Made by a program: the position numbers and the translations under genes. The notes beneath the pieces are model-generated. The model searched no databases. It was given only the letters and a program-made list of their open reading frames with translations, and was not told the origin of the DNA. This document shows, piece by piece, positions 12,005 to 62,266 of a DNA stretch of 64,000 nt. The DNA comes from Tubulanus polymorphus (taxonomy: Eukaryota > Nemertea > Palaeonemertea > Tubulaniformes > Tubulanidae). How positions within the stretch are numbered: position 1 is the first letter of the stretch; each line of letters starts with the position of its first letter. The stretch spans positions 16,308,155 to 16,372,154 of the forward strand of contig NC_134033.1 of NCBI RefSeq assembly GCF_964204645.1, written 5' to 3'.

Positions 12005-13256
12005 CCTCACGGCGTTGTGCAAATGAAATAGTTATCTTATTTACGATCGGATCGAATTTATTTACGAAATCGCTCGAACTAAATGATTTTCACTGTAGTT
12101 CGTGTCTTGTTGTAGCTATACAAAACATATAATGTTGATAGAACACAATTGAAATTGTTTTACGGATCTGATTACCTCTGGATATCCCGTGTCCCGGTCT
12201 TTGACCCACGGTGGTGATTTCCTCGGATTATCGGAGATTATCGCGGGTCTTGATTCGTGTGACGATAACCAATCGTCTGCCCGACTCGCCCGATAATCAC
12301 TTGCTACCGCGTTACAGAAAATAACCCAAGATCCAATACTGTATTCTATACCCTCGAGGAGAAATAAACATGAATTATTTGACGAAATGATTACTCCAAG
12401 GGTTTAGTTACAGATATGGGAAGATGAGTTCAATAGCCATCTGCGCATTTATTTCGATTTTTTTAAAAATCTGCGTATATCAAACAAATACTACCGGCAG
12501 ATTAATCAATGCGGGATGAAAAATAAATCAAATCAAATCAAAACCTTACGCTGTCTGGTTCCGCCAGCATTTCATGAGAGGTGCACGGTCCAAACTGATG
12601 ATTGAATTATGTCTCGAACAAAAAACAGTTTAAAATATAAACAATCTCTGAATATCATTAAGTTTTATTTCTACAATTTATCATGAATTACAATTAGAAA
12701 ATCAAAAATTATCCAACAACGAAAAATGTTTGTGACGTCTTTTTTGATTCTCTTGGAAATTTGATTTTATTGCGGACCTAAAATGATGAAAATAAAAATA
12801 AAACATAGCTCTTATTCTGACATCTGGAAAAAACAATCAATTTCGAAATGTAAATGAGCAATATTCTTTCGAATCATATCGAACTTAGATTTCATTAAGT
12901 ATTATTAGCGTTTAGCCCCCGGTGCGAGTCGAAAGCCTCTGATTATCACGCGTACTCCCGCCATGCGAGACAAACGACTCAGTGACCGGCGCAGCCATGT
13001 ATTCTAATGTCCAATGCATGCAACGATTATTATACTATATTTACAAATGTCAAAATGCTTCCACAACCACCACTGTACACACTATACATGCATAAATATA
13101 GAGGTTCAAATGTATTCGCAAAAACAAAATGTATCACTACTACCGATAACAAAAAACGAGAATGAAATGTAATAGATACATAAATGAATAAGCAATTGAA
13201 TAATAAATAGACAAATAGAATATATTTGTAAGAAGTAAAAAGGAGACAAGGTGACA
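8840..13256. repeat. Second copy of an 8.84-kb tandem duplication
   Basis: Bases 8840-13256 correspond to 1-4416 with a shift of about 8,839 bases. The match covers coding sequence and about 1.25 kb of 3' flank alike, so the duplication is recent. The right boundary is visible: identity stops at AAGAAGTAAAAAGG (about 4416 and 13244-13256). The left boundary lies before the window for copy 1. Confidence 0.9.
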
Positions 13257-23000: not shown

Positions 23001-25102
23001 TCCACTCGCCTACGTATGTGCTTAATGTATGCATAATATGTGAGTCTTTTTTGCGGTAATTAAACGCATAACGTCACTACTTAAATAAAGGAACATAATG
23101 GTTTCGAGTACGTTACACTTGAGACCACATGTCGGACTACAATACGCGTAAAGTACCGATGTTGTATCAAGCACTTTTTATTAGAATTAACAATTAAAAC
23201 AGAAATCCTTTACTAGGTACCCTCGAGGAAGGAGTGTTCGTTCGTTACGCTATCACGTGTTGTCGAGTGCTATTACGTCCTCTTAACTGAAATCACTTGA
23301 TTAATTCGTACAAAAAGAAAAACGTTTAAAAACCTTTTCATAATCAGTAATGAAAATAAACTGAAGTATGTTCTTGACTCGCGTGGAACTGCTGCTATAT
23401 TTCCCCGTATGACAAACTAACTAATGATTTTGTTTCAAATGTTTCTAGTAAGATCAGGCTCTAGTTGCACAGTTCTGAATCCAACTCCATGAAGCATGTT
23501 TCAACGCATTAAACGGTTTAAGTAGCAGTTCCGTAGAAATGTGTACTGGTTCATATGTTACATAGTTTCTTGCTCCTATAAAGTCCACGCATCTTCAATT
23601 CAAATGATAACTCAGAGTCGATTGCGCCAGATCACGTGCCCAGAATCTGTTTACCGTTGAAGCTGATTGGCTCAGATTATCACGTGCCCCGCCGGACAAT
23701 ACATCGCACGCATTTTCTTGCTGATAACGACCAATCACTGCTCCGACTGCTCCGGAATTCAACTGCATTCGTGTCCAGGAATGACACAGAACAGGAATTA
23801 AGTGTTTTCTGCAAGACTTTTATCCGGAATCATGCCGGAGGATTTATTAACCGGAAATAATTCCGGGGGTCAAATTTCGGGATGATATCTCAGATTAGAC
23901 ATTTGCCGGAGATTTCCGGTAAGAAATCTTCCGGAATTCCCTCATACCCTACCCCTCCTCATATCAGATATCCGCCGGAATTTTCCGGAAATTTTCGGAA
24001 AACCATCGTCCCGAATTTTCCGGAAAATTCTGTAATGCGTAATTTCTGGACTTGAGAGATGACTTATTGCTCCCACGGACGGATCCGAGACAAGCGCTGA
24101 AGTCTAACTGTTATACGTGATTATGTCGATACTGACCTGTACTTCGTTGTATTGTAACAATCGAACGTTGATCGGGTTGGCTTTGAAAAATTTCAGATCG
24201 AAATATCTCGGAAAAGTCATCGGATTCCCGTATCGCATTTCGTTGTTAACTCGAACGTCGAACTGGCACGGGTCCGATACGAGCGTGCTCCTCGATACCG
24301 TGTACTTACACGGGCCGAAATACCCGAATAGCATTCCGTCGTAGGTTACGAAATGAGGGTCACCTTCGACTAAACACCGACAGACTAGAATAAATGAAAA
24401 CGAAAACCAACTCAAAAAGTATATTTACGCCTTAATAAAAACATTGCGTAATATCGTCGACAATTGATAATAAAGTATAAGATCCAGGCTAGAAGTTATT
24501 TTGGATTTGAATATATCGATAATTGAATTGAATTGACCGGCAACCAGTCTAGTCCCGATATATCGACGACGTGGTGAACATCCTCTCAAAAATAATCATC
24601 AAAATCTAGGCTAAAAAAATTGATACCTTGTTTCTCCGCTCTGCTGAGCTTAAATGTTGACCCGGCCGGCCGCCTATCTACCCTATACATTACTTTTTTT
24701 TAAAATCGTGATCAATTTTACCATAACAGACCCGGCCGCTATAGAAATGAACTGTTTACAAATTTTATCATATTTTACTAAAATGACCCGGCCGCTGCGG
24801 AGAAACAAGGTATCATTTTTTGTTTAGCCTTATCTTAGTGCACGTCGACTCACACAGTACACATAACACATAATAGTTACCAATGAATACAGTTTATTGC
24901 ACAGTTTGTATTATACAGTTTTTACGGCATAGTAGTTATCATTGTATATAAACATTATTATAACGATTTCAACGGAGTCGAAAAACTCCTGAAGTAAAAA
25001 AAGGACGAAATGAAAACTATTTTCAAATCTAAACTTACAATCTTCCTTAGCGTATGACGTCGACAGCGCCAACATGAATCCCAGGACTAAGATTAAACCC
25101 AT
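13356..25102 (-). CDS. Secreted vWD / kringle / mucin-like mosaic protein, 23 exons
   Basis: Exons on the minus strand: 25102-25039, 24384-24137, 22759-22597, 22150-21997, 21569-21450, 21029-20836, 20268-20092, 19522-19463, 19198-19142, 19029-18970, 18766-18710, 17954-17898, 17054-16998, 16915-16862, 16775-16668, 16572-16531, 16043-16008, 15899-15156, 15082-14936, 14848-14756, 14663-14182, 14070-13905 and 13627-13356. The lengths sum to exactly 1,204 codons (1,203 aa) without a stop. Order: signal peptide (MGLILVLGFMLALSTSYA), vWD (22-210), C8 (210-314), TIL (315-373), seven two-Cys mini-repeats (374-507), Thr/Pro linker, three kringles (570-817), Thr/Pro linkers flanking a Cys-rich insert, mucin repeat block (to about 1020), second C8, second TIL. 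An AG acceptor lies directly before the ATG, so a noncoding 5' exon is likely. vWD-C8-TIL is the assembly unit of gel-forming mucins and zonadhesin-like proteins; kringles bind ligands in extracellular proteins. A matrix, mucus or surface role is inferred. The last exon may instead splice at 13454. Confidence 0.85.
14182..15082 (-). other. Exons 19-21: Thr/Pro mucin repeats and a Cys-rich insert
   Basis: Exon 19 (15082-14936) is Thr/Pro/Ser-rich. Exon 20 (14848-14756) is a small Cys-rich piece of about 30 residues ending NGCYGCGHCT, faintly like antistasin-type modules. Exon 21 (14663-14182) holds about six imperfect units on the pattern TTTPPxGTTTEPIEP, then the first half of a C8 domain. 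Long open frames on the opposite strand here are shadows of this repeat. Confidence 0.8.
15156..15899 (-). other. Exon 18: three kringle domains in one exon
   Basis: A single 744-base phase-1 exon encodes three complete kringles of about 80 residues. Each shows the six-Cys framework with SG(R/L)KCQ(A/R)W, PH(K/S)H(T/S)R, NYCRNPD, EGPWCYT and RWEYCD. Kringles 2 and 3 are nearest to each other, for example in CQRWDSQTPHSH. The common vertebrate kringle is split by an intron; here three lie uninterrupted, which suggests local duplication inside the exon. Confidence 0.92.
16008..16775 (-). other. Exons 15-17: Thr/Pro-rich linker
   Basis: Three short phase-1 exons (16775-16668, 16572-16531, 16043-16008) encode a stalk rich in Thr, Pro, Ala and Glu with no Cys, e.g. 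TPTGTTPEPIEP. Such stretches are usually O-glycosylated. They connect the mini-repeat array to the kringles. Confidence 0.75.
16140..16410. repeat. Dispersed repeat with TTTTTGAGAGGATGTG core, copy 1
   Basis: Contains GATAATTATTTTTGAGAGGATGTG, a CGATATATCGGGGTTAGACTGG block and AATTCAATTACCAATATATTC. The complementary arrangement is found at 24490-24608 and at 35820-36060. Non-coding; family unknown. Confidence 0.65.
17325..17845. repeat. 47-bp minisatellite in an intron
   Basis: About ten tandem units on the theme TGAGCTTAGACTGGTCTTAG followed by GTTGTTAGATTGG. Several central units are identical at 47 bases. Related, more diverged arrays occur at 19715-19960 and 32940-33330, with single or few units near 26100-26200 and 28610-28650. 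Confidence 0.85.
18391..18538. mobile_element. Mariner/Tigger-like MITE
   Basis: Terminal inverted repeats CAGTGGAACCTCGTTA and TAACGAGGTTCCACTG bound 148 bases without coding capacity. This end sequence is typical of pogo/Tigger-type non-autonomous elements in invertebrates. It lies in the intron between exons 11 and 12 of the mosaic gene. No clean TA target duplication remains. Confidence 0.7.
19715..19960. repeat. Minisatellite array related to 17325-17845
   Basis: About five units with the core AATGAGCTTAGACTGATCTC and AAGTTGTTAGATTGGTTATA, in the intron before exon 8 of the mosaic gene. Same family as the 17.3-kb array but with TTATAGAACC instead of CTTGTGAACT. Confidence 0.75.
22155..22520. 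repeat. About 40-bp minisatellite (CCCAGTTCCACAGTTGTG family)
   Basis: Around nine tandem units with the core GACTCTGGACCCAGTTCCACAGTTGTGTGGGTTTAATTT in variants. The same core occurs as single or few units near 18190, 40195, 44575, 52610, 60610 and 63690, so the array probably grew from a dispersed element. Apparent long reading frames here are only the repeat. Confidence 0.8.
24490..24870. repeat. Dispersed repeat copy 2, interrupted by a MITE
   Basis: The part before 24609 matches 35820-35940 (GATTTGAATATAT, CCGATATATCGA, CATCCTCTCAAAAAT). The part after 24829 resumes with GTCGACTCACACAG, as at 36030-36050. The 221-base element at 24609-24829 sits between them, so it inserted into an older repeat. 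Confidence 0.6.
24609..24829. mobile_element. PIF/Harbinger-like MITE, copy 1
   Basis: 221 bases starting GGCTAAAAAAATTGATACCT and ending in the complement of GGCTAAACAAAAAATGATAC, with inner CCGCTCTGC or CCGCAGCGG next to the ends and three CCCGGCCG motifs. The copy at 49089-49307 is almost identical in reverse orientation and has a clean TAA target duplication, which fits a PIF/Harbinger-type element. It lies in intron 1 of the mosaic gene. Confidence 0.75.
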
Positions 25103-46129: not shown

Positions 46130-46200
46130 TATAAAATCAGAGCTTTCAAATGCATTCGAATCGTTGTTAACCTCAACACCGACTTCGTCCAGCAAAACAG
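46130..46200 (+). promoter_or_regulatory. TATA box and noncoding exon of peptide gene A
   Basis: TATAAA at 46130-46135 is followed by a block conserved in all four cluster genes, CGAATCGTTGTTAACCTCAACACCGA with a donor ACAG|GTAATG at 46200. The conservation also extends about 60 bases upstream (TGATAAATAGTTATACTGATAAA). Transcription should begin roughly 25-30 bases after the TATA box, giving a 5' UTR exon of about 40 bases spliced to the AG at 46291. Confidence 0.75.
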
Positions 46201-46292
46201 GTAATGTTCAGTACAATTATCATCTCATTTCGCTGTGGTGTCGTTCGCTTCAACCAATTCGATGACCAGAGATTTCGAATTCAATTTTCAGA

Positions 46293-47562
46293 ATGGTCTC
46301 GTTGAAAGTCATCGCGCTCTTCGTCTTCGTCGGACTCGTTGCCGTTCAGGCAAAAGGTAAGTTTAATCATTTTGACATATCTCTTCACATAAAACGGAAT
46401 GGTTTGGGGCATATAGATCTATAAGTTTAACCGGTAGACTGGTATTAATATCAATTTAGAGCTAATGAAAAGTAAGTCGGTTATCTGACAATTTCGTGGT
46501 TTCTTCTAACTTCTCTAACGATGAAAAAGTTATCCCGAAACCGTCTGATAATAAACTAACTTTTTCAATATCTACCGTGGGTTTCTACTCGGTATCTTTG
46601 ACTTCGTTTTCTGGATTCTTTTATTCTTTTGATTTTTTGAATGTAAATCTATCGTTGATGATATTCGCGAATATTCGTCTACTTTCAGAAGTAAGCGAAG
46701 TAGAAATCACCCTCGAAGAGGATGCTGGTGGTGAGTACCACAGTACAAACGCTTAAAATGTTGTAGAGCTGATTTGTGTTAACCGAATATAGAATTAAAT
46801 GTTATATAAACAGGCAGGTCCACAGTACTACCTGTTTTCTTGTTTTAGTATAGACCATCTAATTTGTTTACTTCGCCGAAATGAATTGAATGGGTTTAAT
46901 TAATAAACAATCGGGTACCCGCAGTACTACTGTGGCAATCGAGGATTCAACGTATGGCAGGCGAGAGTCCGCCAGGTTCGCTAGTGGTCGTCCGCGTTCG
47001 ATATCTTCTATATTTCAATCAAATCTAAATGAACTTTTCTCTTAAATGAATCAATTATTTTTAAGAAAACTTTATACCGATATCCGAGTTTAAAAATGAA
47101 AGTATTGTATATTTGGTGGGTGCTGCGATAATGTATGGACGGGGAGTCAAAAAATCCATTTCGACCTACTGCTTGTCCACCATCTGGCGGAATAGCTGGT
47201 TTTGCGGATACCCAATTGAATATCGAATGTATGGAAATGTATTCAATGTTATTGCAGAAGGCCATGACATTGAAAAACGTGGGCCGGTCGCCGGAGCTAT
47301 AGCCGTCGAAGCCATCAAAGCAGCTCTCCAACTGGGTACCAATCTTCTGGACAGCATCTCGCAACATTACTACAACAACAAAGCCATGATCTGTTACTGG
47401 AACGATTGGCGAGCACGTGACGCCCGCGCCCGTATCGAGAGAACCTTCAGAAATTGTCGATTCTCGCGAGCTAAGCGTACCTGGGGCTGGGTGAACGGAA
47501 GATGGTACTGCCTGATGAAACAAGTTGCCTGTAAAACTCTGGGCCACGCTCTCGGCAAATAA
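46293..47562 (+). CDS. Cationic four-Cys peptide precursor A
   Basis: Coding exons 46293-46356, 46689-46730 and 47258-47562, all phase 1, give 136 aa. Signal peptide MVSLKVIALFVFVGLVAVQA, an acidic propeptide (EVSEVEITLEEDAG...), Lys-Arg at 41-42, then a mature part of about 94 residues: a helical N-terminal segment, then C-x20-C-x17-C-x6-C with many Arg and Trp (WGWV, RWYC) and the end GHALGK. The splice acceptor before ATG and the conserved upstream exon support the start. Exon 2 is 42 bases, longer than the 18 bases in the other three genes. Substitutions peculiar to this copy include NNKAMICYW and RNC for TNxAMTCYW and RHC. A polyadenylation signal AATAAA lies at 47661. The family is not recognised; a secreted antimicrobial or defensive peptide is inferred from charge and processing. 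Confidence 0.8.
46914..47215. repeat. Dispersed repeat, copy 2, inside intron 2 of peptide gene A
   Basis: Reverse-oriented partner of 43930-44255, starting near GTACCCGCAGTACTACTGTGG. It explains the misleading open frame that runs into exon 3 of gene A from upstream. Confidence 0.7.
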
Positions 47563-48309
47563 ACGCTGATGTCGTGCTCACAATGAAGGTCTTTCACACG
47601 AGCAATTATCTTTTCGATTTCAAACCATGAAATGTCAAAACGTATTCAAGTGTGATTGAAAATAAAACTGAATTATCGCATCGGAACTCTGTCTTTAGTG
47701 TGTATTCATCGTTTATGAGGGTGTGCTTATATCCTGTGGTTTCAGGCATAAGTCAAAAATTTAATGAATACCTTTAAGGACACTCAATAGAAAAACTTAA
47801 TGAATCGCGGCTTCACTTAAGGGTATTAATTCTGAAGGCCACCATTCGAACGCAAGGACGAAAATAGATAAAAATTGGCAAAGGAGAAAAAACAAAGGAA
47901 ACAAAAATCTAAAAAGAAAAACGTTCACAAAGGCTACGAATGTCGGATAAATAAACTTTCAAATATCATCAATTGTCGAATCATTTCTTATTTCATATTC
48001 ATTTGTATGGGATCCAATATGTGCCAATGAAATTAAATCAAAATCTCCATCTTCTTATGTCTGATTTTCGTAGCTCGAATGCAGAATCTATTTCACTTGA
48101 AACTTGACGTTACACGACACCTGACGTAGCTCGGATACTCGTCAAAGACGCACAAATTTAGAATCCCGAATTTGGTTTCTTCGCCAAACACCGAACGATA
48201 TGACTATAAGTCGTGTATAAACGCACAAGTCGCATAAAAATATATGGTTCCATATTTCTTTATTTTACTTCAAATTCAATCGACGTCACAGCTCGAGTCA
48301 CGGCTCAGG

Positions 48310-48600
48310 GACCAGTTGCTCGTTACTATCTACTGGTTAACTCTTACCAACTTTTGAGCAACTGGTAAAGCTAACCAGTAAATAGTTGACATAGTGACAA
48401 TTGAAAGTCCATTGTTACTATGCTATTTATCCGCCAGTTATCTTTAACCAACTTTTGAGCAACTGGTCCCAGTTGCTCAGAAGTTGGTTTGAGTCAACCA
48501 GCGAATAGTTGGCGTAGTGAAAATTGAAATTTCATTGTTACTTTGGTATTTATCCGCCGGTTACCTTTAACCTCGATTGAGAAACTGACACCGGAAGGTC
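48310..48600. repeat. Inverted-repeat cluster (GAGCAACTGGT family)
   Basis: Several alternating copies of ACCAGTTGCTC and CAACTTTTGAGCAACTGGT with TTGTTACT..GTATTTATCCGCC blocks. Related sequence lies in intron 1 of peptide genes C (57840-57970) and D (54765-54880). Confidence 0.65.
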
Positions 48601-49088
48601 AAGTTCAAGGTCACGTAGTTTGTGTATTGATTTTTGATACGGCTGTGCAGCGGTCGATTTCAATGTCGAGGATATCAACTTCGAAGTCGAATATTTCGTA
48701 AACTTTCCAAAATATCCGACTTATTCGCAAGTCGTTTATCGTGTTAGTCGAATGAATTTGATGATTGGGCCAAATTTGTACGGTTTATGCGATGTTGACA
48801 ACCTACATTCGCATACAGAACTCGGCGTTAGATTAACATTTCGATTTTGCCCATATTTCGTCGTTAATAAATTTACCGTATTCAGTGACGTATTGAAGTC
48901 AATCTCCCTTCAACAAGTTAGTCATACGTTATTTGAATTGACCTTGCATGTCTAGACTATAAAATATGGCGGAACCCGATTTGTTTATTGCGTGGCGGCG
49001 CGGATTCGAATTTTGATTCTAAATTGCCTCATACATAAACATAAACATTTCAAAATCAGTAATTCATTCGAATAAGAATTAAAACTAA

Positions 49089-49307
49089 GGCTAAACAAAA
49101 ATGATACCTTGTTTCTTCGCAGCGGCCGGGTCATTTTTGTAAAATATGATAAAATTTATAAACAGTTCATTTCTATAGCGGCCGGGTCTGTTATGGTAAA
49201 ATTGATCACGATTTTAAAAAAAGTAATGTATAGGGTAGATAGGCGGCCGGCCGGGTCAACATTTAAGCTCAGCAGAGCGGAGAAACAAGGTATCAATTTT
49301 TTTAGCC
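49089..49307. mobile_element. PIF/Harbinger-like MITE, copy 2
   Basis: 219 bases, starts GGCTAAACAAAAATGATACC, ends in the complement of GGCTAAAAAAATTGATACC, and is flanked by TAA on both sides (49086-49088, 49308-49310). Nearly identical to 24609-24829 in reverse orientation. Confidence 0.82.
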
Positions 49308-49321
49308 TAAATCACACCTGA

Positions 49322-49552
49322 CGATGATATGGTGGCTGATTTGGGACATACTAAAATATTTTTCTGTACGGCTAAAGCAACGATAAGAAAATTTTCAGAT
49401 TGGCCCGTTTTTGGTTTTCTCGCGCCAGAATTCAAAACTTTTGGTTTTCTCGTGCGAGTACCGCCAAAAAACGGGCAAATGTGAAAATTTGTTTATCGTT
49501 GCTTCAGCCGTACAGAAAATTGTTTTAGTATGATCCAAATCAGTCATCATAG
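49322..49552. mobile_element. Foldback element with about 90-base arms
   Basis: The left arm GATGATATGGTGGCTGATTT... through GTACGGCTAAAGCAACGATAA to GCCCGTTTTTGG is repeated in reverse complement at the right end (TTTATCGTTGCTTCAGCCGTAC ... AATCAGTCATCAT). It lies 15 bases from the PIF-like MITE. Confidence 0.75.
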
Positions 49553-50215
49553 ATTCCTCTGGATTATACGAAAAGATACATTGGTGATTTGACAGACATA
49601 GACTGGAACATAGTGCGGCGTTTATCTTGAAAAACGGTTAAATGTTAGATCCTATAACCGAATCGTAAACAAAATGGCGGCTTTTTCAACCGATGAAATT
49701 AGGCCTGAAGATGAGAAGGGTTAGTATCAAGAGGGTAGGGTTTAGGATCAGGGTAAGGGTTTAGGTGTCGAGTCAATTATAGGATCTGACATCTACCAAA
49801 AAGGGATGAATGACCCATTTGAGATCGTTCGAAGGTCTGTCTGAATTGATTAATTTGTCAGTGCCACATTCACCAATCGATAAGGGTTTCAATCTTGAAA
49901 TGGTAAATTGTTCCTCTTGATTTTGAAATCGGAATACAGAGTGGAAGGTTCGTTCGAATTTCTGGTCTATTCGAAGTATCTAATCATTTTGGTTCTTGTT
50001 CAAACTTCCCCCGGCAGGCGACCATTATGGTTAATTTCTACTTTATTTCTGTGCAACTAACAAATCCACCAATCGCAACGTGCCGGGAACCGATTGGAAT
50101 ATAAGCAAAATTTACGATCGTATTTTCGCTCGGCCCTATAAATTTTGTGAAATCCACTTCTGAAACTGATTAATAGTTATACTGATAAATGACTCTCACT
50201 AATACGAGATATGGC

Positions 50216-50286
50216 TATAAAATCAGAGCTTTCAAATGCATTCGAATCGTTGTTAACCTCAACACCGAGGTCGTCCAGCAAAACAG
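50216..50286 (+). promoter_or_regulatory. TATA box and noncoding exon of peptide gene B
   Basis: TATAAA at 50216-50221 and the same downstream block as in gene A (CGAATCGTTGTTAACCTCAACACCGA), ending AAAACAG|GTAATG at 50286. Confidence 0.75.
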
Positions 50287-50377
50287 GTAATGTTCAGTAC
50301 AATCTTCTTCTCCGTGGCGTCGTTCGCTTCATAATGAAACTATTCAATGACAAAATAATTCTAAATCGAATTTCAGA

Positions 50378-51442
50378 ATGGTTTCGTTGAAAGTCATCGC
50401 ACTCCTCGTGTTCGTCGGATTTGTTGCCGTCGTCCAGGCAAATGAAGTCGGTAAGTTAACAGACGTGTTATAGGGGGTTGGCGAATCAGCAAGTTTTTAG
50501 CGTTGGTCCGGTTTTGTTGTAAAGCATGAAAGGAGCATCGTTTTTCATTTTCATAAAATTTTAATATAAACGCTTTTTGAAACTAACAATTTCTTTTTAT
50601 ATCATGTACCATAACGCTTTTCTATTTTTAGAAATTGAACTCGAAACTGGTGAGTGTAAAAAAGTATTCAATTTTATGGTATTTTTCGACTTCAGAATTG
50701 TATATCATCAGCTGGGAAACCGCCTAGGGCTCCTTCTCGCGGCTAGTGGAGATTTTGCGAGGAGATTATGATTCTTGGTTCAGGTTTTATCTCCACCGAC
50801 ATGGGAAATCACAAGCATTCACTTTAAAATGCTCGTATCAAATTCACGCCCTTTGAATTGGAACGTTTTAAGAACTGGCCCCATCAATTGTTCCTCATCA
50901 GGAACAATTTGGCCTTAACCCTTTTAGGCTTGAGCTTTTTTCATGGAATTTGGCTCAAAAATAACTGCCTCGGTTGCGACGCTACTGGGACCGGTTTTAT
51001 TGACTGTTATTAACCATAATCTATGGGTTAACTGAATTGAAAATGAATCGAGTTAACCCCCGGGTTAAAAGTAGACACCAGTCTATAAAACAGGCCGTTG
51101 GTCTGTAATATTGGACACTTTCTATTTACAGAGGCAGATTCTGGTATGCAATTGTCAAAACGTGCCGGAGGGGCAGCAGTAGCAACTGAAGCCATCAAAG
51201 CAGCTCTCTCACTGGGTACCAATCTTCTGGACAGCATCTCGAAACATTACTACACCAACGAAGCCATGACCTGTTACTGGAACGATTGGAGAGCACGTGA
51301 CGCCCGCGCCCGTATCGAGAGAACCTTCAGACATTGTCGATTCTCGCGAGCTAAACGTATCTGGGGTTGGGTAAGCGGAAAATGGTACTGTCTGATGAAA
51401 CAAGTTGCCTGTAAGGCTCTGGGCCACGCTCTCGGCAAATAA
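50378..51442 (+). CDS. Cationic four-Cys peptide precursor B
   Basis: Coding exons 50378-50450, 50632-50649 and 51132-51442, all phase 1, give 133 aa. Signal peptide starts MVSLKVIALLVFVGFVAVVQA. Exon 2 is an 18-base microexon encoding acidic propeptide residues (IELET). Exon 3 opens with EADSGMQLS, then Lys-Arg, then a mature N-terminus AGGAAVATEAIKAALSL that differs from genes A and C, followed by the almost invariant core with C-x20-C-x17-C-x6-C and GHALGK. Its 3' flank is closest to that of gene A. The AATAAA seen in gene A reads AATGAA here. Product predicted to be secreted and cut by a furin- or prohormone-type protease. Function inferred only. Confidence 0.82.
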
Positions 51443-52166
51443 ACGCTGATGTCGTGCTCACAATACACGGTTAGGCTCAGTGATCGTACGATTCGTTTTA
51501 CCTTTTTCACGCGACCAATTTGTTTTTCGATTTCGAATTTTTGAAGTGTCAAATTATATCTAGGTGTGATTGAAAATGAAATTGAAACTCAGTCTTTAGG
51601 GTGTATTCATTTTTCGGTGCAATAAGGGTCTGTTTATATCCTGGTGATTGAGGTATTGTTCCTTCTCATTCTAAAACGTTTGAGGAACTTCGAAAAAACT
51701 AAAGAAATCACTGGCTCGCATCGGTGACAACGCCACCTCGCGGTATTTATCGAGGAATCCAGGAACCATCGAGGATTATTAGGTTCTAGTCCCGATTTTC
51801 TGGCGCAACGTGACGAGGTCATTGAAAAATTCTGAAATATTCTCGAACATCTGGTCGTCTATTAATCGAAGACTTACATGGCCCCCAATAAAAACAATTC
51901 GATGATCTCTTTCAAAAATATGATTTTGTGATGAGTTAGTTTTATAATTAGCATAAAATCAAGTGTGATAAATTCAAATATTTTATATTGATATCAAACT
52001 GTTGATGGTGATAATTGTAATGTAGATAATATTGATGATGGCATCTTATAACGAGTGTTTACCTGGAAAGAAGTCAATGTCCACTGCCTTCAAATTTCCG
52101 TAAACCTCACCTTTCTTGTACAAACTATGACCAGAAAAAATCAGTCCGCGAGTTAAGGATAGGACA

Positions 52167-52291
52167 GGGCCCAGTTTCACAAAAACTCAAATTTTTGGAA
52201 TAATTGCCATTGGTTACATCACGTTTTCAATAAGGACAACAATTCAAACCTAACCGTTTCAGGCTTAAACTTTTTTCATGAAACTGGGCCC
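52167..52291. mobile_element. Small foldback MITE (GGGCCCAGTTTCA ends)
   Basis: Ends GGGCCCAGTTTCACAAAAA and TTTTTTCATGAAACTGGGCCC are inverted repeats around a 125-base unit. A decayed relative (AACTGGCCCC ... GGAATTTGGCTC) lies in intron 2 of peptide gene B near 50873-50965. Confidence 0.75.
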
Positions 52292-53084
52292 AGGATGATA
52301 CGTTGGGAAGTTAGAGACGTGATTTCGTTTTCACCCGAGCTTGTCTAAAATCCCGAGTTGGTAACGTGCGGGTTAGATGATGTTGTTTTTTTGTAATGCT
52401 CTGGACGAATAAGGATATTCTGCGCTGGTCAATATTGTCTGTTCGTGTGTTCAAATACAGTGAAACTCTTCTCACTAAGACATGATCATATTCTCCTGAC
52501 GTCCACCAGATTCGTGAGGCATAAAACTAGCAATGTATATATAGAAGACCTCATCTGAAATTGAATATGCTTATATAAAAACCGTTACAAACCCAGCTGA
52601 AGATCTGGATCCAGTAACACAGTTGTGAGTTTAACATTTGACTCAGAGTTTACTCATTTCCCCAGGTTCCAGCGCCTTAATTTTATGTACAGCCTGTTGG
52701 CTTGCACTGGATACCTCGTAACCGGTTTACGAAAATAAATTATTATTATTGAAAATGAACTAATTTTCACTCGAAACCGTGGGACTAGAAGCATCACGGT
52801 CGTTTCTCAACGAATTTTCTGCATCATACCCGGTTTCAACATGGAAATTAATTTTACCCCGAATATGCCATATATGGAAGAACCATCTTCACCCGTCAAG
52901 GGATTCGAACCCTTAATTTAATATCTAGGGTTAGAATGGCGCAGAAGTTCAGAGTTGAGTTTGTGGGTAAGAAAAGTCGTACTTAGTCAGCCAACCGATT
53001 CTGCGTCGATTTCTTCTGTTGAGATGCCGAACCCATCTTCACCCGTCAAGGGATTCGAACCCACTACGCTAAAGCTGTTCGCCG

Positions 53085-53370
53085 AACCCCTTGACCTCAC
53101 GAGTCGTTGGAGTCGTTACTAGCCGACCAGAATCCGGTCGTACCAATCACAGCGCTTGTAACAAACCGACAGTAGACTTCTGTTGGTTTTCCCGTTAAAT
53201 TGACCAATCAGCGAACGTTTTACTGAACAAGGAAGTATTTCGCAAATCCATATATGACGTCATGCGCAACAGCGCCAGTTATGAAATCACACTTCGTGAG
53301 GCCAGGGGGCTGGTGGAAGCGAGTTCGGGAGTGATACCAGACCCCTGGCAAGCGAGGATGTGGAAGAACC
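53085..53370. repeat. Dispersed foldback repeat, copy 2
   Basis: Reverse-oriented partner of 43085-43390, bounded by ACCCCTTGACCTCACGAG and CTTCGTGAGGCCAGGGGGC. Non-coding. Confidence 0.75.
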
Positions 53371-53837
53371 AGCATGGGAGCCTAACCGTGAGGAGAAGAA
53401 TTCTGAATTCATCATCAGTTACATCTCAGCAAGAGCCTCTGCGCCAATTCTGAATTCACTTTATCAAATTACGGCAATAATTCAGAAATCACGTGTGAAA
53501 AAACAACGGTTTACCAAGAGAGAGGGGGAAGGGCGATAATTCATGATCAATTAGCCTGAGTAGTTTAGTGATTTGAAGTCTGATTTGCAGAAATTGAATT
53601 TCAAAAAAGGCATTGTCTTATCGATAAGTATAGATATCTGTGATCACGTGCCTCACGAATGCAAATCAGCGGCTTAGACCTCGCCTCCCGGCGCATTACG
53701 ACAATAACTAAACGCAAAATATATTGATTGCTGGTCAGATAGTTTTATCGTGTTTATTCGCTCTCAATATTTTACGTTTTACAATTTAGAGTAAATCGAA
53801 AAATGAGATGATATTACATGCACGACTCTCAGGGTAT

Positions 53838-55053
53838 TTATTTGCCGAGAGCGTGACCCAGAGCTTTGCAGGCAACCTGTTTCATCAGACAGTACCATCT
53901 TCCGCTTACCCAACCCCAGATACGTTTGTAGCGTGAGAATCGACAATGTCTAAAGGTTCTCTCGATACGGGCGCGGGCGTCACGTGCTCTCCAATCGTTC
54001 CAGTAACAGGTCATGGCTTCGTTGGTGTAGTAATGTTGCGAGATGCTGTCCAGAAGATTCGTACCCAGTGCGAGAGCTGCTTTGATGGCTTCAGTTGCGA
54101 TGGCCGCCTTGTAGCGTTTTTCTATTCTCTTTCCCGAGTCCTCCCCTGTAATTATGAAATAGCTAGCTTTATACAGAGCCAGATGTTCAGTGGCTTAGAC
54201 TTTAGTTTAAGACTAACCAATAACTATTACCAATCTAACTTAATCCTAGTCTCACAATTTTGACCCATTTTCGCCCCCGGTCAGGACTGTTCTACTTGGT
54301 TCAAACCTCAATCAAAACCTTTCTATTTATTTACCGTAAATCCAATAAGAGCATTTTGAATGTATGAATTATGAGTTGTATTACTCAGTTAGCCGAAAGA
54401 GGGCGGCCTCAGCGATTTACTGGCACATAATTCACACTTTCTGCAGTCGAAACGAAGTATTTTTACTCACCAGTTTCGAGTTCGATGTCTGGAAATGGAA
54501 AAAAATATATATATAATCGTACATACTATGATATCGATATACATAGTTTCAAAAAGCGTTTATTTCTCGATTATACCGAAACAAAAAACTAGCCTCTTAT
54601 GTAAATGTATATACGTTTCTCTGTTTACTCGACCCTGTATTAAGGATGAAAGACATTGATGTTGACCGTATATCCAGGGATGAAACGTTGCTTTTTAGAT
54701 AGCAACATTTACCCTTACCCCAAATCTTCATCGCATTCAAGTCGTTAAGCTAGGTTTATAAACCTGGTGAACTAGTGAATAAGTGTTATAGTGACAATCG
54801 GAATTGCATTGTAACTAACCATCATGGTATTTGTCCACCGGTAAACTCTAAACAACTTGTTCGAGCAACTAGCCGCTGAGTATTCAAAAACCAACATATT
54901 GCGTAGGTTGCTCGATAACATGTATTTAAGAATTTGTTCGTCCTAGATACTGTGTCTGCATGCATCATATCACTTACCATTACCCGAGCTTTTTGCCTGA
55001 ACGGCAACCAGTCCCAGAACCAGGAGCAGCGCGATGACTTTCAGCGAAACCAT
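53838..55053 (-). CDS. Cationic four-Cys peptide precursor D
   Basis: The only minus-strand member: coding exons 55053-54978, 54488-54471 (18-base microexon) and 54145-53838, all phase 1, total 133 aa. Signal peptide MVSLKVIALLLVLGLVAVQA, short KSSGN then acidic IELET and GEDSGKR, Lys-Arg site, mature N-terminus YKAAIATEAIKAALAL, then the shared C-x20-C-x17-C-x6-C core (CRFSRYKRIWGWVSGRWYC region) and GHALGK. Almost identical to gene C outside the segment directly after the cleavage site. A polyadenylation signal AATAAA (TTTATT on +) is at 53753-53758. Confidence 0.82.
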
Positions 55054-55159
55054 TCTGGAATTTAGAAAAATGCAATCGAGATGCTGATCGAATGAGCTAA
55101 CAAATCCACTGCGAGTGGAGAGGAGAGACAATCGAGTGAGAATTGTACAGAAATGTTAC

Positions 55160-55230
55160 CTGTTTTGCTGGACGAAGTCGGTGTTGAGGTTAACAACGAT
55201 TCGAATGCATTTGAAAGCTCTGATTTTATA
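55160..55230 (-). promoter_or_regulatory. TATA box and noncoding exon of peptide gene D
   Basis: TATAAA on the minus strand at 55230-55225 and the conserved CGAATCGTTGTTAACCTCAACACCGA block with donor ACAG|GTAACA at 55160. Confidence 0.75.
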
Positions 55231-55855
55231 GCCATATCTCGTATTAGTGAGAGTCATTTATCAGTATAACTATTTATCAGTTTCAGACATGGATTTCACA
55301 GAATTTATAGCGGAAATACAATCGTAAAATTTTGAAACACCACCTGCCTATGAACTAGAAATTCAAACCCTAATCGCTAATGACGGAACCACTTGTTAAC
55401 CACTGGATAAATTGGAAATATACTTTTCATGGATATTCAGATATTTCGATTTGAATTAAATTCGCAAATCTTCATACGGTCCCTCGTTTCATATCGTTAA
55501 CGCTCTCAATTTTGCATTCGGAAAATGCGAGAATCGCCATTACAAAAAAGTAAATCTACGCTTAATTTCCTTGGGTCGATGTAAAAATTAACGCTTATCG
55601 AGGGAGGGTCTGCAGAGCTACGTGAAATTCGATCAAAACTTTTCTTTCAGAAAACGAAAACAACGAGGACCTCGAGGGACCGCCACAATATGACGCCTGG
55701 AAACTGAAATATATTGCGTAGTATATGAATTTATGTTTTGAAATAAAGCCTCATCTTTATCGTCAGTGACCTATATGTCAGTAATCATATACGATATTGT
55801 TTCTATCATTTATCAGTCTACATCATATATCAGTCTAAAATCATATTAGTAAAGC

Positions 55856-56335
55856 AGTCCCGCGACACGCTACCGATTTCCCTGATTGGCGACCTGTTGA
55901 AATATCACCAGGAGCCACAACACACAATACCTAGTTCTATGATTGTCAACTCAGTGAAATATTTACAGCAGTCCCGACACTACCGAGTTCCCTGATTCTC
56001 AACTCGGTGAAATATTCCCAACACTACCGAGTTCCCTGATTCTCAACTCGGTGAAATATTTACAGCAGTCCCAACACGCTACCGAGTTCCCTGATTCTCA
56101 ACTCGGTAGAATATTTACAGCAGTCCCAACACGCTACCGAGTTCCCTGATTCTCAACTCAGTGAAATATTTACAGCAGTCCCAACACGCTACCGAGTTCC
56201 CTGATTCTCAACTCAGTGAAATATTTACAGCAGTCCCAACACGCTACCGAGTTCCCTGATTCTCAACTCAGTGAAATATTTACAGCAGTCTCAACGCTAC
56301 CGAGTTCCCTGATTCTCAACTCGTAGAAATAGAAC
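55856..56335. repeat. 55-bp minisatellite
   Basis: About eight units on CAGCAGTCCCAACACGCTAC, CGAGTTCCCTGATTCTCAAC and TCAGTGAAATATTTA. Central units are nearly identical; the first two are shorter or diverged. Confidence 0.88.
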
Positions 56336-56924
56336 CTGAATCTATTGAACCTGAAAATGATACGTACATTCCTCCTATTAACTTTATTTCAGTATTGATT
56401 TGTTTCATCGGGAAATAGAATCTTGAACTAATCTTTATATAAGATGTGTTTATTATCAAATTCATTCGTTCAATCCAGATGTTTTTTAATCTTTGGACAG
56501 TGATGAATGATAACCCTAATTTGTTGGCTTGATTTTGGTATCCTTTAAGCGCCCACTGGTCGCATCTGTCGGAAATGAAATAGGTAGGGGCTTTAGATTC
56601 ATTTAACTGATGTCTATTTTAACATTCTGTATCATAACAATATGTTATGCTAATATACCGTCACTGTTTCATTTATGTGTCACTATATTATGACGTGTTT
56701 TCATTCTATCAGAAAATAAATAATGATAATGATAATAATCATAATCACAATGATTATAATCTCGACATGAGAGCACAGCGTGTGGCCTAGAAGTCAGTTT
56801 TGATGGTATTTTACACTTTATTGAAGGATTGCAAAAAAGTCTTCATTGAACGGGGTTGAATAAAGAAAAGTGACTCCATGATTTGAATGTTTAGCAAATG
56901 CGTTTCCATGCCCATCCAACCTGA

Positions 56925-57200
56925 TGGCATCGACTCAGCCACGGTACGAACCCCTGCCACACCAGACCGGCTGCGCACGAAAACTTGCGGCACCAATCAG
57001 ATTGCTCGTTGTATAATCGCTGAGGTAAATTTCATGGAAGAACTATAAATGGGAAAACTCGGGCTAAAATAAAACGGGATATCTGATTGGCTGATAATGA
57101 CATAATCTAAGCTGCGCGTGTAGCTGCGCACTCGGTCTCGTGTGGCAGGGTTTCGCTCGATGCCATCAGGTTCGAATCCCTGCCGGGGGAGGAGGTTCCA
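56925..57200. mobile_element. Foldback element with tRNA-like end
   Basis: CCTGATGGCATCGACTCAGC ... CCCTGCCACACCAGACCG is mirrored by CGGTCTCGTGTGGCAGGGTT ... CGATGCCATCAGG. The right end continues GTTCGAATCCCTGCCGGGGG, which resembles a pol III B box. No coding sequence. Confidence 0.65.
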
Positions 57201-57507
57201 TGCCTACATACCATAACTTTAAGTAAGTCAACATGGATGTTATGTAAATGGCACATTTGCCAGCCGAAGGGCTGTGGGCATTATTCGATCTGCAGCGATC
57301 AATGCCCCCCTAGATAGATCGTGTATTTGAAGTCTCTATAGGCAGGTGGTGTTTCCCATACAGAAGCCCACCAGTCACACACCTGTCGGGACAACAACGA
57401 AAGCGAAATTTTACGATTGTATTTTCCGCTATAAATTCTGGAAATCCATGTCTGAAACTGATAAATAGTTATACTGATAAACGACGATCACTAATACGAG
57501 ATATTGC

Positions 57508-57578
57508 TATAAAATCAGAGCTTTAAAATGCATTCGAATCGTTGTTAACCTCAACACCGACTTCGTCCAGTTAAACAG
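57508..57578 (+). promoter_or_regulatory. TATA box and noncoding exon of peptide gene C
   Basis: TATAAA at 57508-57513; the conserved block follows, with AGTTAAACAG|GTAACA at 57578 (AGCAAAACAG in the other three). Confidence 0.75.
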
Positions 57579-57683
57579 GTAACATTTCTGTTCATTCTCA
57601 CTCGATTGTCTCTTCTCTCCACTCGCAGTGGATTCGTTAGCTCATTCGATCAACATCTCGATTGCATTTTTCTAAATTCCAGA

Positions 57684-58919
57684 ATGGTTTCGCTGAAAGT
57701 CATCGCGCTGCTCCTGGTTCTGGGACTGGTTGCCGTTCAGGCAAATAACCCGGGTAATGGTAAGTGATATGATGCATGAAGACACAGTATCTAGGACGGA
57801 TCAATTCTAAAATACATGTTATCGAGCAACCTACGCAATATGTTGGTTTTTGAATACTCAGCGGCTAGTTGCTCGAAGTTGTTTAGAGTTTACCGGTGGA
57901 CAAATACCACGATGGTTAGTTACAATGCAATTTCGATTGTCACTATAACACTTATTCACTAGTTAACTTCAACAAACGCGATAGCAACCAGGGCTGAAAA
58001 CTCACCCGAATGACTTGAATGCGATGAAGATTTAGGGCTAGGCTAAAATGTTGTTACGCATCTAAGGTAACGTTTCATCTCTGGTCAACATCAATGTCTT
58101 TTATAGCAGGGTTGAGACAGTCAGAAACGTATATGCAGTTTCGTAATAAAACCTACATATACATAATGGGGTAGTTTTTTGTTTCGGTATTAAGAAATGG
58201 ATGCTTTTTGAAACTATGTACATATCGTTATCATAGTATGTACGATCATATATATTCTTTTCCATTTCCAGACATCGAACTCGAAACTGGTGAGTAAAAA
58301 TACTTCGTTTCGACTGAAGAAGTGTGAATTATATACCGGTAAATTGTCGAGGGCCCCCCTTTCGGCTAAATGAGAAATACAACTCAATATCCATACATTT
58401 AAAATGCTCTTATAGGATTTACGGCCAATAAATCGAAAGGTTTTAACTAGGTTTGAACCAAGTTGAACAGTCGTGACTTGAGCAAAAATTTCAAGACCAG
58501 GCTTAAGTTAGATTGTTTATAGTTATTGGTTAGTCTTATACGGGTCTCGAGTCTAAGCCACTGAACATCTGGCTCTGTATTAAGCTGGCTACTTCATATT
58601 TACAGGGGAGGACTCGGGAAAGAGATTAGAAAAACGTGGGCCGGTCGCCGGAGCTATAGCCGTCGAAGCCATCAAAGCAGCTCTCCAACTTGGTACCAAT
58701 CTTCTGGACAGCATCTCGCAACATTACTACACCAACAAAGCCATGACCTGTTACTGGAACGATTGGAGAGCACGTGACGCCCGCGCCCGTATCGAGAGAA
58801 CCTTCAGACATTGTCGATTCTCACGCTACAAACGTATCTGGGGTTGGGTAAGCGGAAGATGGTACTGTCTGATGAAACAGGTTGCTTGTAAAACTCTGGG
58901 TCACGCTCTCGGTAAATAA
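57684..58919 (+). CDS. Cationic four-Cys peptide precursor C
   Basis: Coding exons 57684-57759, 58272-58289 (18-base microexon) and 58606-58919, all phase 1, give 135 aa. Signal peptide MVSLKVIALLLVLGLVAVQA, then NNPGN, acidic IELET and GEDSGKRLE, Lys-Arg, mature N-terminus GPVAGAIAVEAIKAALQL as in gene A, and the conserved four-Cys core. The propeptide carries an additional Lys-Arg a few residues before the main site. Polyadenylation signal AATAAA at 58999-59004. Gene C sits in the arm opposite gene D, but its first 65 bases after the cleavage site match gene A rather than D. Confidence 0.82.
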
Positions 58920-60977
58920 ATACCCTGAGAGTCGTGCATGTAATATCATCTCATTTTTCGATTTACTCTAAATTGTAAAACGTAAAATATTGAGAGCGAA
59001 TAAACACGATAAAACTATCTGACCAGCAATCAATATATTTTGTGTCTATTTTTTCGTAATGCGCCGGGAGGCGAGGTCTAAGCCGCTGATTTGCATTCGT
59101 AAGACACGTGATCACAGAAATCTGCATCAGATTTATTAGAGGTAGCTTAAACACTTTTTTGTACTTTCCGCAGTAGCGCCCACTACAACAGGAATCCAGG
59201 TTTCGATCGGTGTCCACCGATTACGGAATTCTCGCCAGAGACACTCTGCCTATTCCTGAATAGCATTATCTATGAACCTGATAGAAGTGGTCGGTGCGTG
59301 AGGGAGAATTGATACAGAAAAAGTTACAAGCTATAAACAGATCAAAGAGGAGCAAACTAGGAAATTAACTAAACCACTAGCTCAAGGAAACATTTTCGGA
59401 CTTTATTTCTTCGTCTTTATTCTGCGATTCTTGTTACATTATCATCACAACACGGATATAGTGTTTTATCGATCGCGGGTTAGTTCAGAGTCTCGAATTT
59501 TGTAATCTTTAATACTAGATATGAACCTCCGATCACGTGTTGTCTCCGATCCATTTCTGTCGGCTACAGAGAAACGTTAAAATGATATAAAGAGAATTCC
59601 ACACTGATAAAACGAGAAAAATGATCTCCGAAAATTGTCCTTAAAGCTAATGATTTATTAATTCTAAATTTCTTCAACTGCAACATAATTATAGTCATCT
59701 TCAGGAATATTTAGTGAAGTGCTAAGAAGAACAAACAGACAAGTAAAGTAATAAGGCATGAAACAAACTACGTAGGGGTATAACATCATACAACAGAATG
59801 AATAACGAAACGAGTAGTAATTAATATAAGTTAACTATTTTATTTGACGCACAAGCTTTCGCTACTATTGTACTAGAAGCTTCATCAGGTGTGAATCACC
59901 ATAGATCAGTTACAAACTAGACAAACGAAGAAAAAACAAACTAGAGGAGGTAATTATCAAAAACAATAGCGAATTTAAGTGGAGTGAGTGACAATAAATC
60001 CCACAATAATGACGAAAAACAAAGTCCGAAAAAGTTTGCTAGAGCTAGCAGTATATTCGACGTTTCGACTTTACTCTGATATTCATCTTCAGGAAAACCC
60101 AGTCACTGGGTCACTCATCCCACGTACTGAAGTAGAATACAACACCAGTACGTGGGATTATCTACAATATTCATATACAACCAAGCTCTAATGAATTTTA
60201 TGATTTCAACTGTCAGCAATATTCATTCACACATTATACACGATTAAATTTCACAACCGGGGGCTAAAATCCATTCGAAGCCTTGTGAACGAAATAAGCT
60301 TAATAAGTCACGTGGAACAATCATTGACTGGAAACCCGTCAGACAATGTCCGAAACCCGTCACACAATGTCCGAAACCCGTCACACAATGTCCGAAACCC
60401 GTCGACAATTTGTATGCAATATTGTCAAACAATGTGTTGTCTGGAAACCATCCGTAACTACAAAACAATGTGATGAGTATCAACTGTACCATCTGTAACC
60501 AGGGATGCTGTGACGCGGAGAGTACCATCTGATACCAGGGATTCTAATTCATACGAGTCGCTGAAATATTACCAGTTCAAGTCTTGTTTGACCAGTCACC
60601 AGCGAGGTAGGTACGCACAGTTCCACAGTTGTGTGAGTTAGATATTACTACGAGTTAGGATTTAGTACAATTTCAATACGAGTTATCTCCCAGTGAAATC
60701 TTCACGGTAAATCTGTTGACTATTGGGTTGAAATTAGTTCATTTACAATGGATTTTAATACTGAGACGGATCTGAACTCACAACTGTAGAACTGACTCCA
60801 TGAGGTATTGATATATAATAATTGTTTCATACGCTCTTTGTACAAAAGTGTAATTCTCCTATCAATGACTCATCTTCATTTCACCGATTCCTGGTTATCT
60901 TACTTTCTGTGTTTATTTGTCATATTTTTTATTTTCTAGTCACAGCACAAAGTATTTTGTAGAGCCAGTCATAATCA
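58920..60977. other. Intergenic between peptide gene C and the amidated-peptide gene
   Basis: After the 3' flank of gene C (to about 59127) there is no recognisable coding sequence. 60250-60790 is a repeated segment also found at 63370-63800. An AG acceptor and short exon-like sequence occurs at 60940-60984. Confidence 0.5.
60250..60790. repeat. Repeated segment upstream of the amidated-peptide gene
   Basis: Contains AAAATCCATTCGA, a short tandem run of CCGAAACCCGTCACACAATGT, AACAATGTGTTGTCTGGAAACCATCCGTAACTA and CCAGGGATGCTGTGACGC..GAGTACCATCTGATACCAGGGA, followed by CAGTTCCACAGTTGTGTGAG. The same order occurs at 63370-63800. Confidence 0.78.
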
Positions 60978-62266
60978 TGAAGGGTAAGAGCATACTTAAC
61001 AATTCCCTTCTAAAGCCTTCAAGTCTGATCCCGAATGACGTCGCTAATGTCCTTAGGTTTGTGTCCTTTAGGGCTCTTAATAGTCAGGCATAATTTCTGA
61101 AAGTGTCTTGAAGAGGTTGTGATGATTTTGGATTTTTGTTGGCAGCCATCTTTTTGGAAGTGTTTATAGGGATGATGATGTCATAGGGGGATTAATGGGG
61201 GTAGTCTCCTTTTTGGAAGTATTCATAGGGATTTGGTAAAGTCATCTTTTTGGAAGTGTTTGTAGTGTTGGTTATTATGTATGAATTTGTTTTCTGTACA
61301 GATATTCGAGCAATGTTCACTGTAATGGTTGTCGGTTGTATACTGATATCGACGATAGTCAGATCAGCTCCGGCCTCAGCAGGCGATTCATCTGCTCCAG
61401 CCTCTCCAGCCGCGCCTCCCGCAGACAATCCTACTCCAGTCGCTCCTTCGACAGACGATGATGAGGTAGCGGCAGCGGCGGCGGCGGAATTTAGTAAATT
61501 GGTTGAAGAAGTTTACAAGGAGATGGAGAAAGCTGACGATCCGGATAGCACTCGAAGCAAACGTTTGCCTTTTAGTAAGATACTGGTGGGGCGAGGTTTT
61601 TTTTAAATATCAATTTATTAGCCAAAGATGATTAACACAAGTGCAAGTTGAAAGGAAATATCGTCTATATTTCATATTCTAAACATAATATTCGTATTTC
61701 TTTTGAAATATTGAAAAAACTGTATGTTTTGTAAATAACAACTGAAGTAAACACAATTAGGTTAACTAGCTTTTGTCAGATTTACCGATTTGTGTCATTA
61801 GGTGTTCTAGGACAAATCCTTGCGACAAATTAGAAAATTTACAACTGCGACTAAACAAAATATAGTATCACAAGTAATATAATAGTAATAATAACAGTAA
61901 TATATAATATCACAAGTATACACATATGTCAATCATGGTCTTGCTACTATTGTCTCATCAATAATTTGTCTTTCTAGATGTTGGTAAATTAGTGCAAGCA
62001 GCTAACATTGCCAGAAGTCTAATCAGTATTGCACGTAAGTACTAACGAGTCTATCCTACATATAGTACGGAAGGTGCCATACGGAAGGTGCCAAGGTGCC
62101 TTGGTGCCATACGGGATAATGCCATTCGACATAATAAGTCGAAATTGTGAAATAATTATCTTGTAAGTCACCGAGGGGAATCCGCAATATAGTCCTTTCA
62201 TTTGAACTCTTTCAATCTATTTAAGTCATTTTTATCATTTCAGTTCGAATCAAAAACTTCGGTTAG
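60978..62266 (+). CDS. Precursor of a predicted amidated amphipathic peptide
   Basis: Exons 61313(or 61302)-61574, 61978-62034 and 62244-62266, all phase 1. From the ATG at 61313 the product has 113 aa; an upstream mini-exon at 60978-60984 (ATGAAGG, donor GTAAGA) would join in frame and add Met-Lys-Asp-Ile-Arg-Ala. A signal peptide (MFTVMVVGCILISTIVRSA) is followed by a Pro/Ala/Ser-rich then acidic propeptide (TDDDEVAAAAAAEF, VEEVYKEMEKADDPDS), a Lys-Arg site at about 83-84, and a short C-terminal peptide beginning LPFNVGKLV and ending RIKNFG. The final Gly before the stop is a standard amidation signal, so the mature product would be 28 residues with a C-terminal amide, no acidic residue, and alternating hydrophobic and basic faces. 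AATAAA at 62387. Antimicrobial or signalling role inferred; family not recognised. Confidence 0.78.

Follow-up and report, generated by a model that had tools for sequence, protein, structure and literature searches.

Invertebrates commonly have orphan peptides that resemble defence peptides. Among the described systems closest to the locus considered here, the big defensins combine a signal peptide, a prodomain with a dibasic end, a hydrophobic domain at the N-terminus, and, after it, a cationic cysteine domain, and are usually encoded in three exons (PMC7203481). Perinerin, from Perinereis, is an arginine-rich peptide with four cysteines, described as unlike the other antimicrobial peptides of annelids (PMC6780910), while the centrocins and strongylocins of sea urchins have a prosequence and cationic, tryptophan-containing mature peptides (PMC4805251). 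In peptides of sea urchins, short prosequences of 15-30 residues, which are anionic, are described as neutralising the cationic mature part (PMC10608444). The parborlysins of nemerteans are proteins of about 10 kDa that are very basic, and cytotoxin A-III has 37% helix by circular dichroism (PMC6410017). The macins are cationic, cysteine-stabilised defence peptides of invertebrates, with more than 60 residues. Some of these features recur in four genes found in a stretch of 64,000 nucleotides from Tubulanus polymorphus (contig C9, positions 16308155-16372154), the whole of which is referred to here as the window. As far as sequence can tell, these genes are well supported as a real orphan family, with precursors predicted to be cut at Lys-Arg and a cationic mature part with four cysteines (C1 to C4).

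The four genes and the wider family

The models of genes 1-4, rebuilt exon by exon, give intact precursors of 136, 133, 133, and 135 amino acids (Table 1). Each gene has three coding exons and a probable upstream non-coding exon. The first coding exon encodes the signal peptide, called from hydrophobicity and by eye, the second is a mini-exon of 42 bases in gene 1 and 18 bases in genes 2-4, and the last encodes the end of the propeptide, the Lys-Arg, and the entire mature part. All 12 introns have GT-AG borders, and both coding introns are in phase 1, which leaves the length of the mini-exon free to vary without breaking the frame. An earlier note on this DNA had described a single three-coding-exon design, a precursor composed of signal peptide, short acidic propeptide, and Lys-Arg, and the spacing C-x20-C-x17-C-x6-C, and all of these hold in each of the four genes. 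Genes 3 and 4 form an inverted pair, with two long blocks that are 95% and 89% identical.

Table 1. Positions of the features in the window and of further family members (contig coordinates where a contig is named).
Feature	Position	Strand	Details
Gene 1 coding region	46293..47562	+	exons 46293-46356, 46689-46730, 47258-47562; probable upstream non-coding exon ends 46200
Gene 1 mature peptide	47281..47559	+	93 aa after Lys-Arg
Gene 1 TATA box	46130..46136	+	directly preceded by the conserved proximal promoter, which carries two GATA sites
Gene 2 coding region	50378..51442	+	exons 50378-50450, 50632-50649, 51132-51442
Gene 2 mature peptide	51164..51439	+	92 aa
Gene 2 TATA box	50216..50222	+	
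Gene 3 coding region	53838..55053	-	exons 55053-54978, 54488-54471, 54145-53838
Gene 3 mature peptide	53841..54113	-	91 aa
Gene 3 TATA box	55224..55230	-	
Gene 4 coding region	57684..58919	+	exons 57684-57759, 58272-58289, 58606-58919
Gene 4 mature peptide	58638..58916	+	93 aa
Gene 4 TATA box	57508..57514	+	
m6 and m7	C9:15408268-15410554		inverted pair
m9	C5:7979391-7979642		near neutral, without C1 and C2
Unrelated peptide-precursor gene	60977..62266	+	exons 60977-60983, 61302-61595, 61978-62034, 62244-62266

The mature parts of genes 1-4 are 91-93 residues long (10.4-10.8 kDa, pI 9.9-10.2), with five Trp and 9-10 Arg each and a net charge of +10 or +11, in agreement with the cationic, Trp/Arg-rich mature part noted previously. 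This positive net charge comes wholly from the first cysteine onward, and the N-terminal 35-37 residues are Ala-rich, with a net charge of 0 or -1. A crude propensity estimate predicts three helical stretches (residues 5-18, 42-54, and 80-85) and two extended ones (residues 36-41 and 67-79). Of the helical N-terminal half that had been proposed, this estimate retains residues 5-18 and drops residues 19-32. The strongest 18-residue helical moment of the cluster falls in the N-terminal segment (0.47-0.50, a value with no control set behind it). The propeptides, which are 12-25 residues long in the eight members listed, have net charges of -6, -4, -1, and -2 in genes 1-4, counting the Lys-Arg, and the precursors contain no repeated short peptides.

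The family extends beyond the window. The genome searched comprises 267.8 Mb in 77 contigs, and the search scores the best candidates only, so that the count of members is a lower bound. The mature part of gene 4, used as the query, finds nine places at E <=0.001, and the diverged members add a weak tenth (E 0.39, 0.20, and 0.24), which, as a query itself, returns the nine others, two of them at E <=0.001, and no further place at E <=10. A hidden Markov model (HMM) built without this tenth and most distant member recovers it at E 6e-5, with the database size set to 3,000,000 open reading frames (ORFs). There is, then, a gene family of at least ten members, and chance is excluded by the identity, by the ratio of nonsynonymous to synonymous change (omega; see below), and by the HMM recovery of the distant member. 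The four-gene cluster of the earlier note is accurate for the window and falls short of the genome, where eight members are on contig C9 (the four genes of the window, one at 13.23 Mb, and three at 15.41-15.43 Mb), one on C10, and one on C5.

Two candidate places, on contigs C8 (E 0.8) and C1 (E 3.5), were rejected as further members, being of low complexity or missing the motif. Contig C12 has 11.5 Mb and C13 has 0.24 Mb, which would make about twelve of the contigs chromosome-sized if they are sorted by size.

Identity to gene 4 in the mature part is 94%, 87%, and 92% for genes 1, 2, and 3, and 36-38% for two strongly diverged members. All ten members have N33, R46, D47, A48, A50, R60, W75, and C84 in common (numbering of the gene 4 mature part), and none of the ten matched frames has an internal stop. 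The GHALGK ending, previously described as invariant, is constant in the four cluster genes and does not hold across the family as a whole. In m5, m6, m8, and m10, reading by eye shows an exon for a hydrophobic leader, an intron in phase 1, and a propeptide with a dibasic end, and m7 is alike; Lys-Arg precedes the mature part in all five, and none was seen in m9. Eight of the ten members have 9.3-10.8 kDa and a pI of 9.4-10.2, and the net charge of the N-terminal segment is 0 or -1 in the nine members with Lys-Arg. In a tree of the ten members, none of the seven inner branches reaches both support marks, and the relationships among the members are not resolved by it.

The natural variants of the cysteine part bear on its disulfides. 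The gaps of 20-17-6 are found in eight of the ten members and are 19-13-6 in m10, which keeps all four cysteines despite the change, whereas m9 has only two. In the alignment, m9 has Ala at C1 and Gly at C2, and its two cysteines are kept near C3 and C4. This joint loss of C1 and C2, in one member and one alignment, suggests the pairing of C1 with C2 and of C3 with C4.

Selection, probable sequence exchange, and promoters

The omega of the mature exon is 0.15-0.45 in all six pairs of cluster genes (method of Nei and Gojobori, NG86), and, judged by these values, the coding exons of the cluster are under purifying selection. The first exon is 92-100% identical among the four genes and the last exon is 85-92% identical. 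Outside the pair of genes 3 and 4, introns 2 and 3 lie at the shuffled background or close to it, with intron 3 of gene 2 slightly above it against genes 3 and 4, and intron 1 is still above this background between the cluster genes. Over the 45 pairs of the whole family, many values of synonymous divergence (dS) are saturated, and four pairs have no defined value, so the distant omegas carry little meaning. The omega of 1.0 between m6 and m7 may represent relaxed or diversifying evolution, and m7 has lost most of its N-terminal cassette.

The variation is concentrated at one end of the mature part. In the pooled comparison of the first 20 mature codons with the rest, the proportion of nonsynonymous differences (pN) is 0.183 against 0.036, that of synonymous differences (pS) is 0.330 against 0.167, and pN/pS is 0.55 against 0.22. 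By this measure, the first 20 mature residues are the variable cassette of the family, and the cysteine part is nearly constant in the cluster. Although gene 4 is the inverted duplicate of gene 3, its first 20 mature codons differ from those of gene 3 at 17 of 54 bases, and from those of gene 1 at one of 54. Genes 1 and 4 agree at 17 polymorphic sites in a row, which none of 20,000 permutations reaches, and genes 3 and 4 at 14 in a row (p 0.0001), with p >=0.14 in the other four pairs, in a test that takes the sites as exchangeable. Within the promoter, the final 62 bases are identical in genes 1 and 4, with one mismatch between genes 2 and 3, and four between genes 3 and 4. This patchwork of cassette and promoter is probably the result of gene conversion involving genes 1 and 4, to which no direction is assigned.

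The promoters themselves have a TATA box in each gene, and the last 110 bases upstream contain 2, 1, 2, and 2 WGATAR sites in genes 1-4, against about 0.5 expected. The C/EBP motif occurs 1, 0, 1, and 1 times in 512 bp upstream (0.6-0.8 expected). The combination of TATA and GATA may hint at tissue-specific rather than NF-kB-driven expression.

Proposed role and competing explanations

Taken together, these features put at about even chances the reading of the genes as an orphan family of secreted host-defence effectors of some animal lineage, with a logic similar to that of the big defensins but without being big defensins. The acidic propeptide would mask the charge of the mature part until an enzyme of the furin or proprotein-convertase type cuts after the Lys-Arg. 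The Arg/Trp-rich, four-cysteine part, with C1-C2 and C3-C4 predicted to pair in the mature chain, would bind anionic microbial surfaces, and the amphipathic N-terminal segment would insert into membranes or drive self-assembly. The cassette varies and is probably traded between copies by gene conversion, with the cysteine part near constant, and a swap of cassettes would be expected to shift the target range, leaving the scaffold untouched. A more specific version is offered tentatively, as a possibility with perhaps one chance in four of being correct, in which the family would be an as yet undescribed defence scaffold in two parts, confined to one animal lineage, and a convergent counterpart of the big defensins with another cysteine scaffold, joining a conserved Arg/Trp four-cysteine anchor to a membrane-active N-terminal cassette traded between paralogs by gene conversion, beside a second new family, of peptides that are helical and possibly amidated, in a single effector locus.

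A number of observations weigh against a defence role or its parts. The N-terminal helix is derived from a crude propensity estimate. The propeptides are not all acidic, with net charges (Lys-Arg counted) of 0, -1, and -1 in m5, m6, and m8, and +4 in m10. The mature part of m9 has a net charge of 0 and a pI of 6.8, that of m10 only +3, and no signal exon passing the filter was found in the approximately 14.8 kb upstream of m9. The pN/pS of 0.55 in the cassette is no sign of positive selection, and, because pS is also higher there, the contrast in variability may derive in part from a homogenised cysteine part, rather than from constraint. Over 512 bases upstream, WGATAR shows no overall excess (2, 1, 2, and 4 sites in genes 1-4, against 2.4, 1.7, 1.7, and 1.4 expected), and the four promoters, being of shared ancestry, are not independent observations. 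None of the four genes has a strict kB motif within 512 bp upstream, which means that classical NF-kB induction is not supported, and the relaxed motif occurs 1, 3, 2, and 6 times, against 1.5, 3.0, 2.3, and 3.8 expected.

Two other explanations are each rather unlikely, and retain some weight. In one, the product would be a secreted cytolysin of the epidermis, mucus, or venom, directed against predators or prey, and similar to the parborlysins in size and charge. The parborlysins have 9.4-10.1 kDa and a pI of 10-10.4, close to the ranges found in eight of the ten members here, but the additional parborlysins described have six cysteines in all but one case (PMC6410017), in contrast with the four of the present family, which is set here against descriptions of those proteins. 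In the other, the product would be a secreted structural, matrix, or reproductive protein, in mucus, a biomineral, or the coat of an egg or sperm, in which the basic and aromatic residues bind acidic polymers. The conserved scaffold, the strong charge in the cluster, and the several copies with sequence exchange fit such a protein, whereas the chain is small and not repetitive, and the neighbouring gene has the precursor design of a defence peptide. A propeptide cleaved at a dibasic site would also be atypical here, as matrix proteins are, to our knowledge, not typically made with one.

A protein hormone, a cytokine-like factor, or a neuroendocrine factor processed at Lys-Arg is a still less probable product. 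The prepro design and the single conserved cysteine domain would suit it, but not the ten copies, the variable N-terminus, the member without C1 and C2, the net charge of +10 to +11 in the cluster, and the lack of repeated short peptides in the precursor. It is highly improbable that the genes are copies without function that a mobile or segmental repeat has spread, their frames being open by chance: the repeat-rich window, the inverted duplication of genes 3 and 4, and the signal exon of m9 that the filtered search did not find would fit, but all ten matched frames are free of internal stops, omega is below 0.5 throughout the cluster, the mini-exon changes length (42 to 18 bases) with the frame preserved, and all of the introns are canonical.

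If the reading as a defence-effector family were confirmed, it would add an orphan family with a cysteine scaffold that none of the searched libraries matches. It would also provide a natural experiment in how modules diversify, in which the cassette differs and appears swapped and the cysteine part is near constant. Because one of the ten members is without C1 and C2 and another has shortened loops, the set allows direct tests of how the disulfides pair and of what each half does. The modular exchange and the natural cysteine variants make this family unusually testable.

Neighbouring genes and comparison with known systems

An unrelated peptide-precursor gene lies about 2.1 kb downstream of gene 4. 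Its product begins with a hydrophobic leader, followed by a propeptide that is long and acidic, then by Ser-Lys-Arg and a tail of 36 residues, the final Gly of which may give rise to a C-terminal amide, and it has no match in Pfam. A copy of this gene begins about 550 bases past the end of the window (C9:16372709-16372987), with a precursor exon that is 95% identical in protein; after the Lys-Arg, the first residues are similar rather than identical, and the likeness is partial only. That two unrelated genes for peptides of the dibasic type are neighbours speaks for a defence-effector locus, but is no proof of one.

The rest of the window contains a tandem duplication of about 4.4 kb (window 8-4417 and 8844-13247, 96.7% identical). 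The long frame of the second copy encodes LDL-receptor class A, leucine-rich-repeat, and seven-transmembrane domains, an arrangement that we take to resemble the GRL101-type receptors. The further domains encoded in the window are CUB, kringle, fucosyltransferase, and LicD. An inverted repeat of approximately 229 bases, 97% identical, is found at window 49086-49312 and 24604-24832, with a weaker match (77%) near m6. The window has no Rfam matches at the gathering threshold and no ARAGORN matches.

The searches against known families agree with the earlier note, in which the cysteine spacing was said to fit none of the known defensins, big defensins, macins, mytilins, or myticins, and no convincing match to any named family emerged from the domain libraries, the PDB sequences, or the literature. 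Pfam has no family for the four full precursors, and NCBIfam has no match for the family. The best E values among the PDB sequences are 1.8 (phmmer) and 0.93 (profile), and show no detectable relation; as the HMMER filters drop most matches above E of about 0.1, having no hit at E <=10 is not the same as having none in that range. Six peptide strings from the mature part are absent from all of 5.39 million open papers, and none of the 151 pattern stretches in viral contigs or of the 44 in prokaryote genome contigs encodes a relative. The term "orphan" thus refers to the domain libraries, PDB sequences, and literature, and other animals may hold relatives.

Among the candidates rejected as chance are two Pfam families matched by one member each, in a search with nine mature parts (best E 0.15), and six PHROGs families, none of them matched by more than three members (best E 0.033). 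Perinerin was rejected as a relative, given that BLASTP with the mature part of gene 4 gives no alignment with it at E <=100.

When compared with the described systems, the family differs from each in its scaffold. Perinerin has 51 residues and another cysteine spacing, the strongylocins have three disulfides and 5.6-5.8 kDa, and the centrocins are heterodimers of two short chains. The macins have four or five disulfides and a knottin fold (PMC6780910), whereas the present family has at most two disulfides; the array of the macins and invertebrate defensins (CS-alpha-beta, with at least three disulfides) contrasts with its maximum of four cysteines and lack of a Pfam match. The BRICHOS-type antimicrobial peptides are set apart by the short propeptides of the family (12-25 residues), and by the absence of any Pfam family from the four precursors. 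The parborlysins and cytotoxin A-III of nemerteans, compared through their descriptions, mostly have a scaffold of six cysteines with three disulfides, against four cysteines here. The big defensins also have six cysteines, in a C-terminal domain similar to the beta-defensins, with the spacing C-X6-C-X3-C-X13(14)-C-X4-CC in an example from amphioxus (PMC10608444). The present family has four, with gaps of 20-17-6, its N-terminal and cysteine parts are encoded in a single exon, and no Pfam match links them, while the dibasic site that characterises the big defensins precedes the mature part in nine of its members, with none seen in m9.

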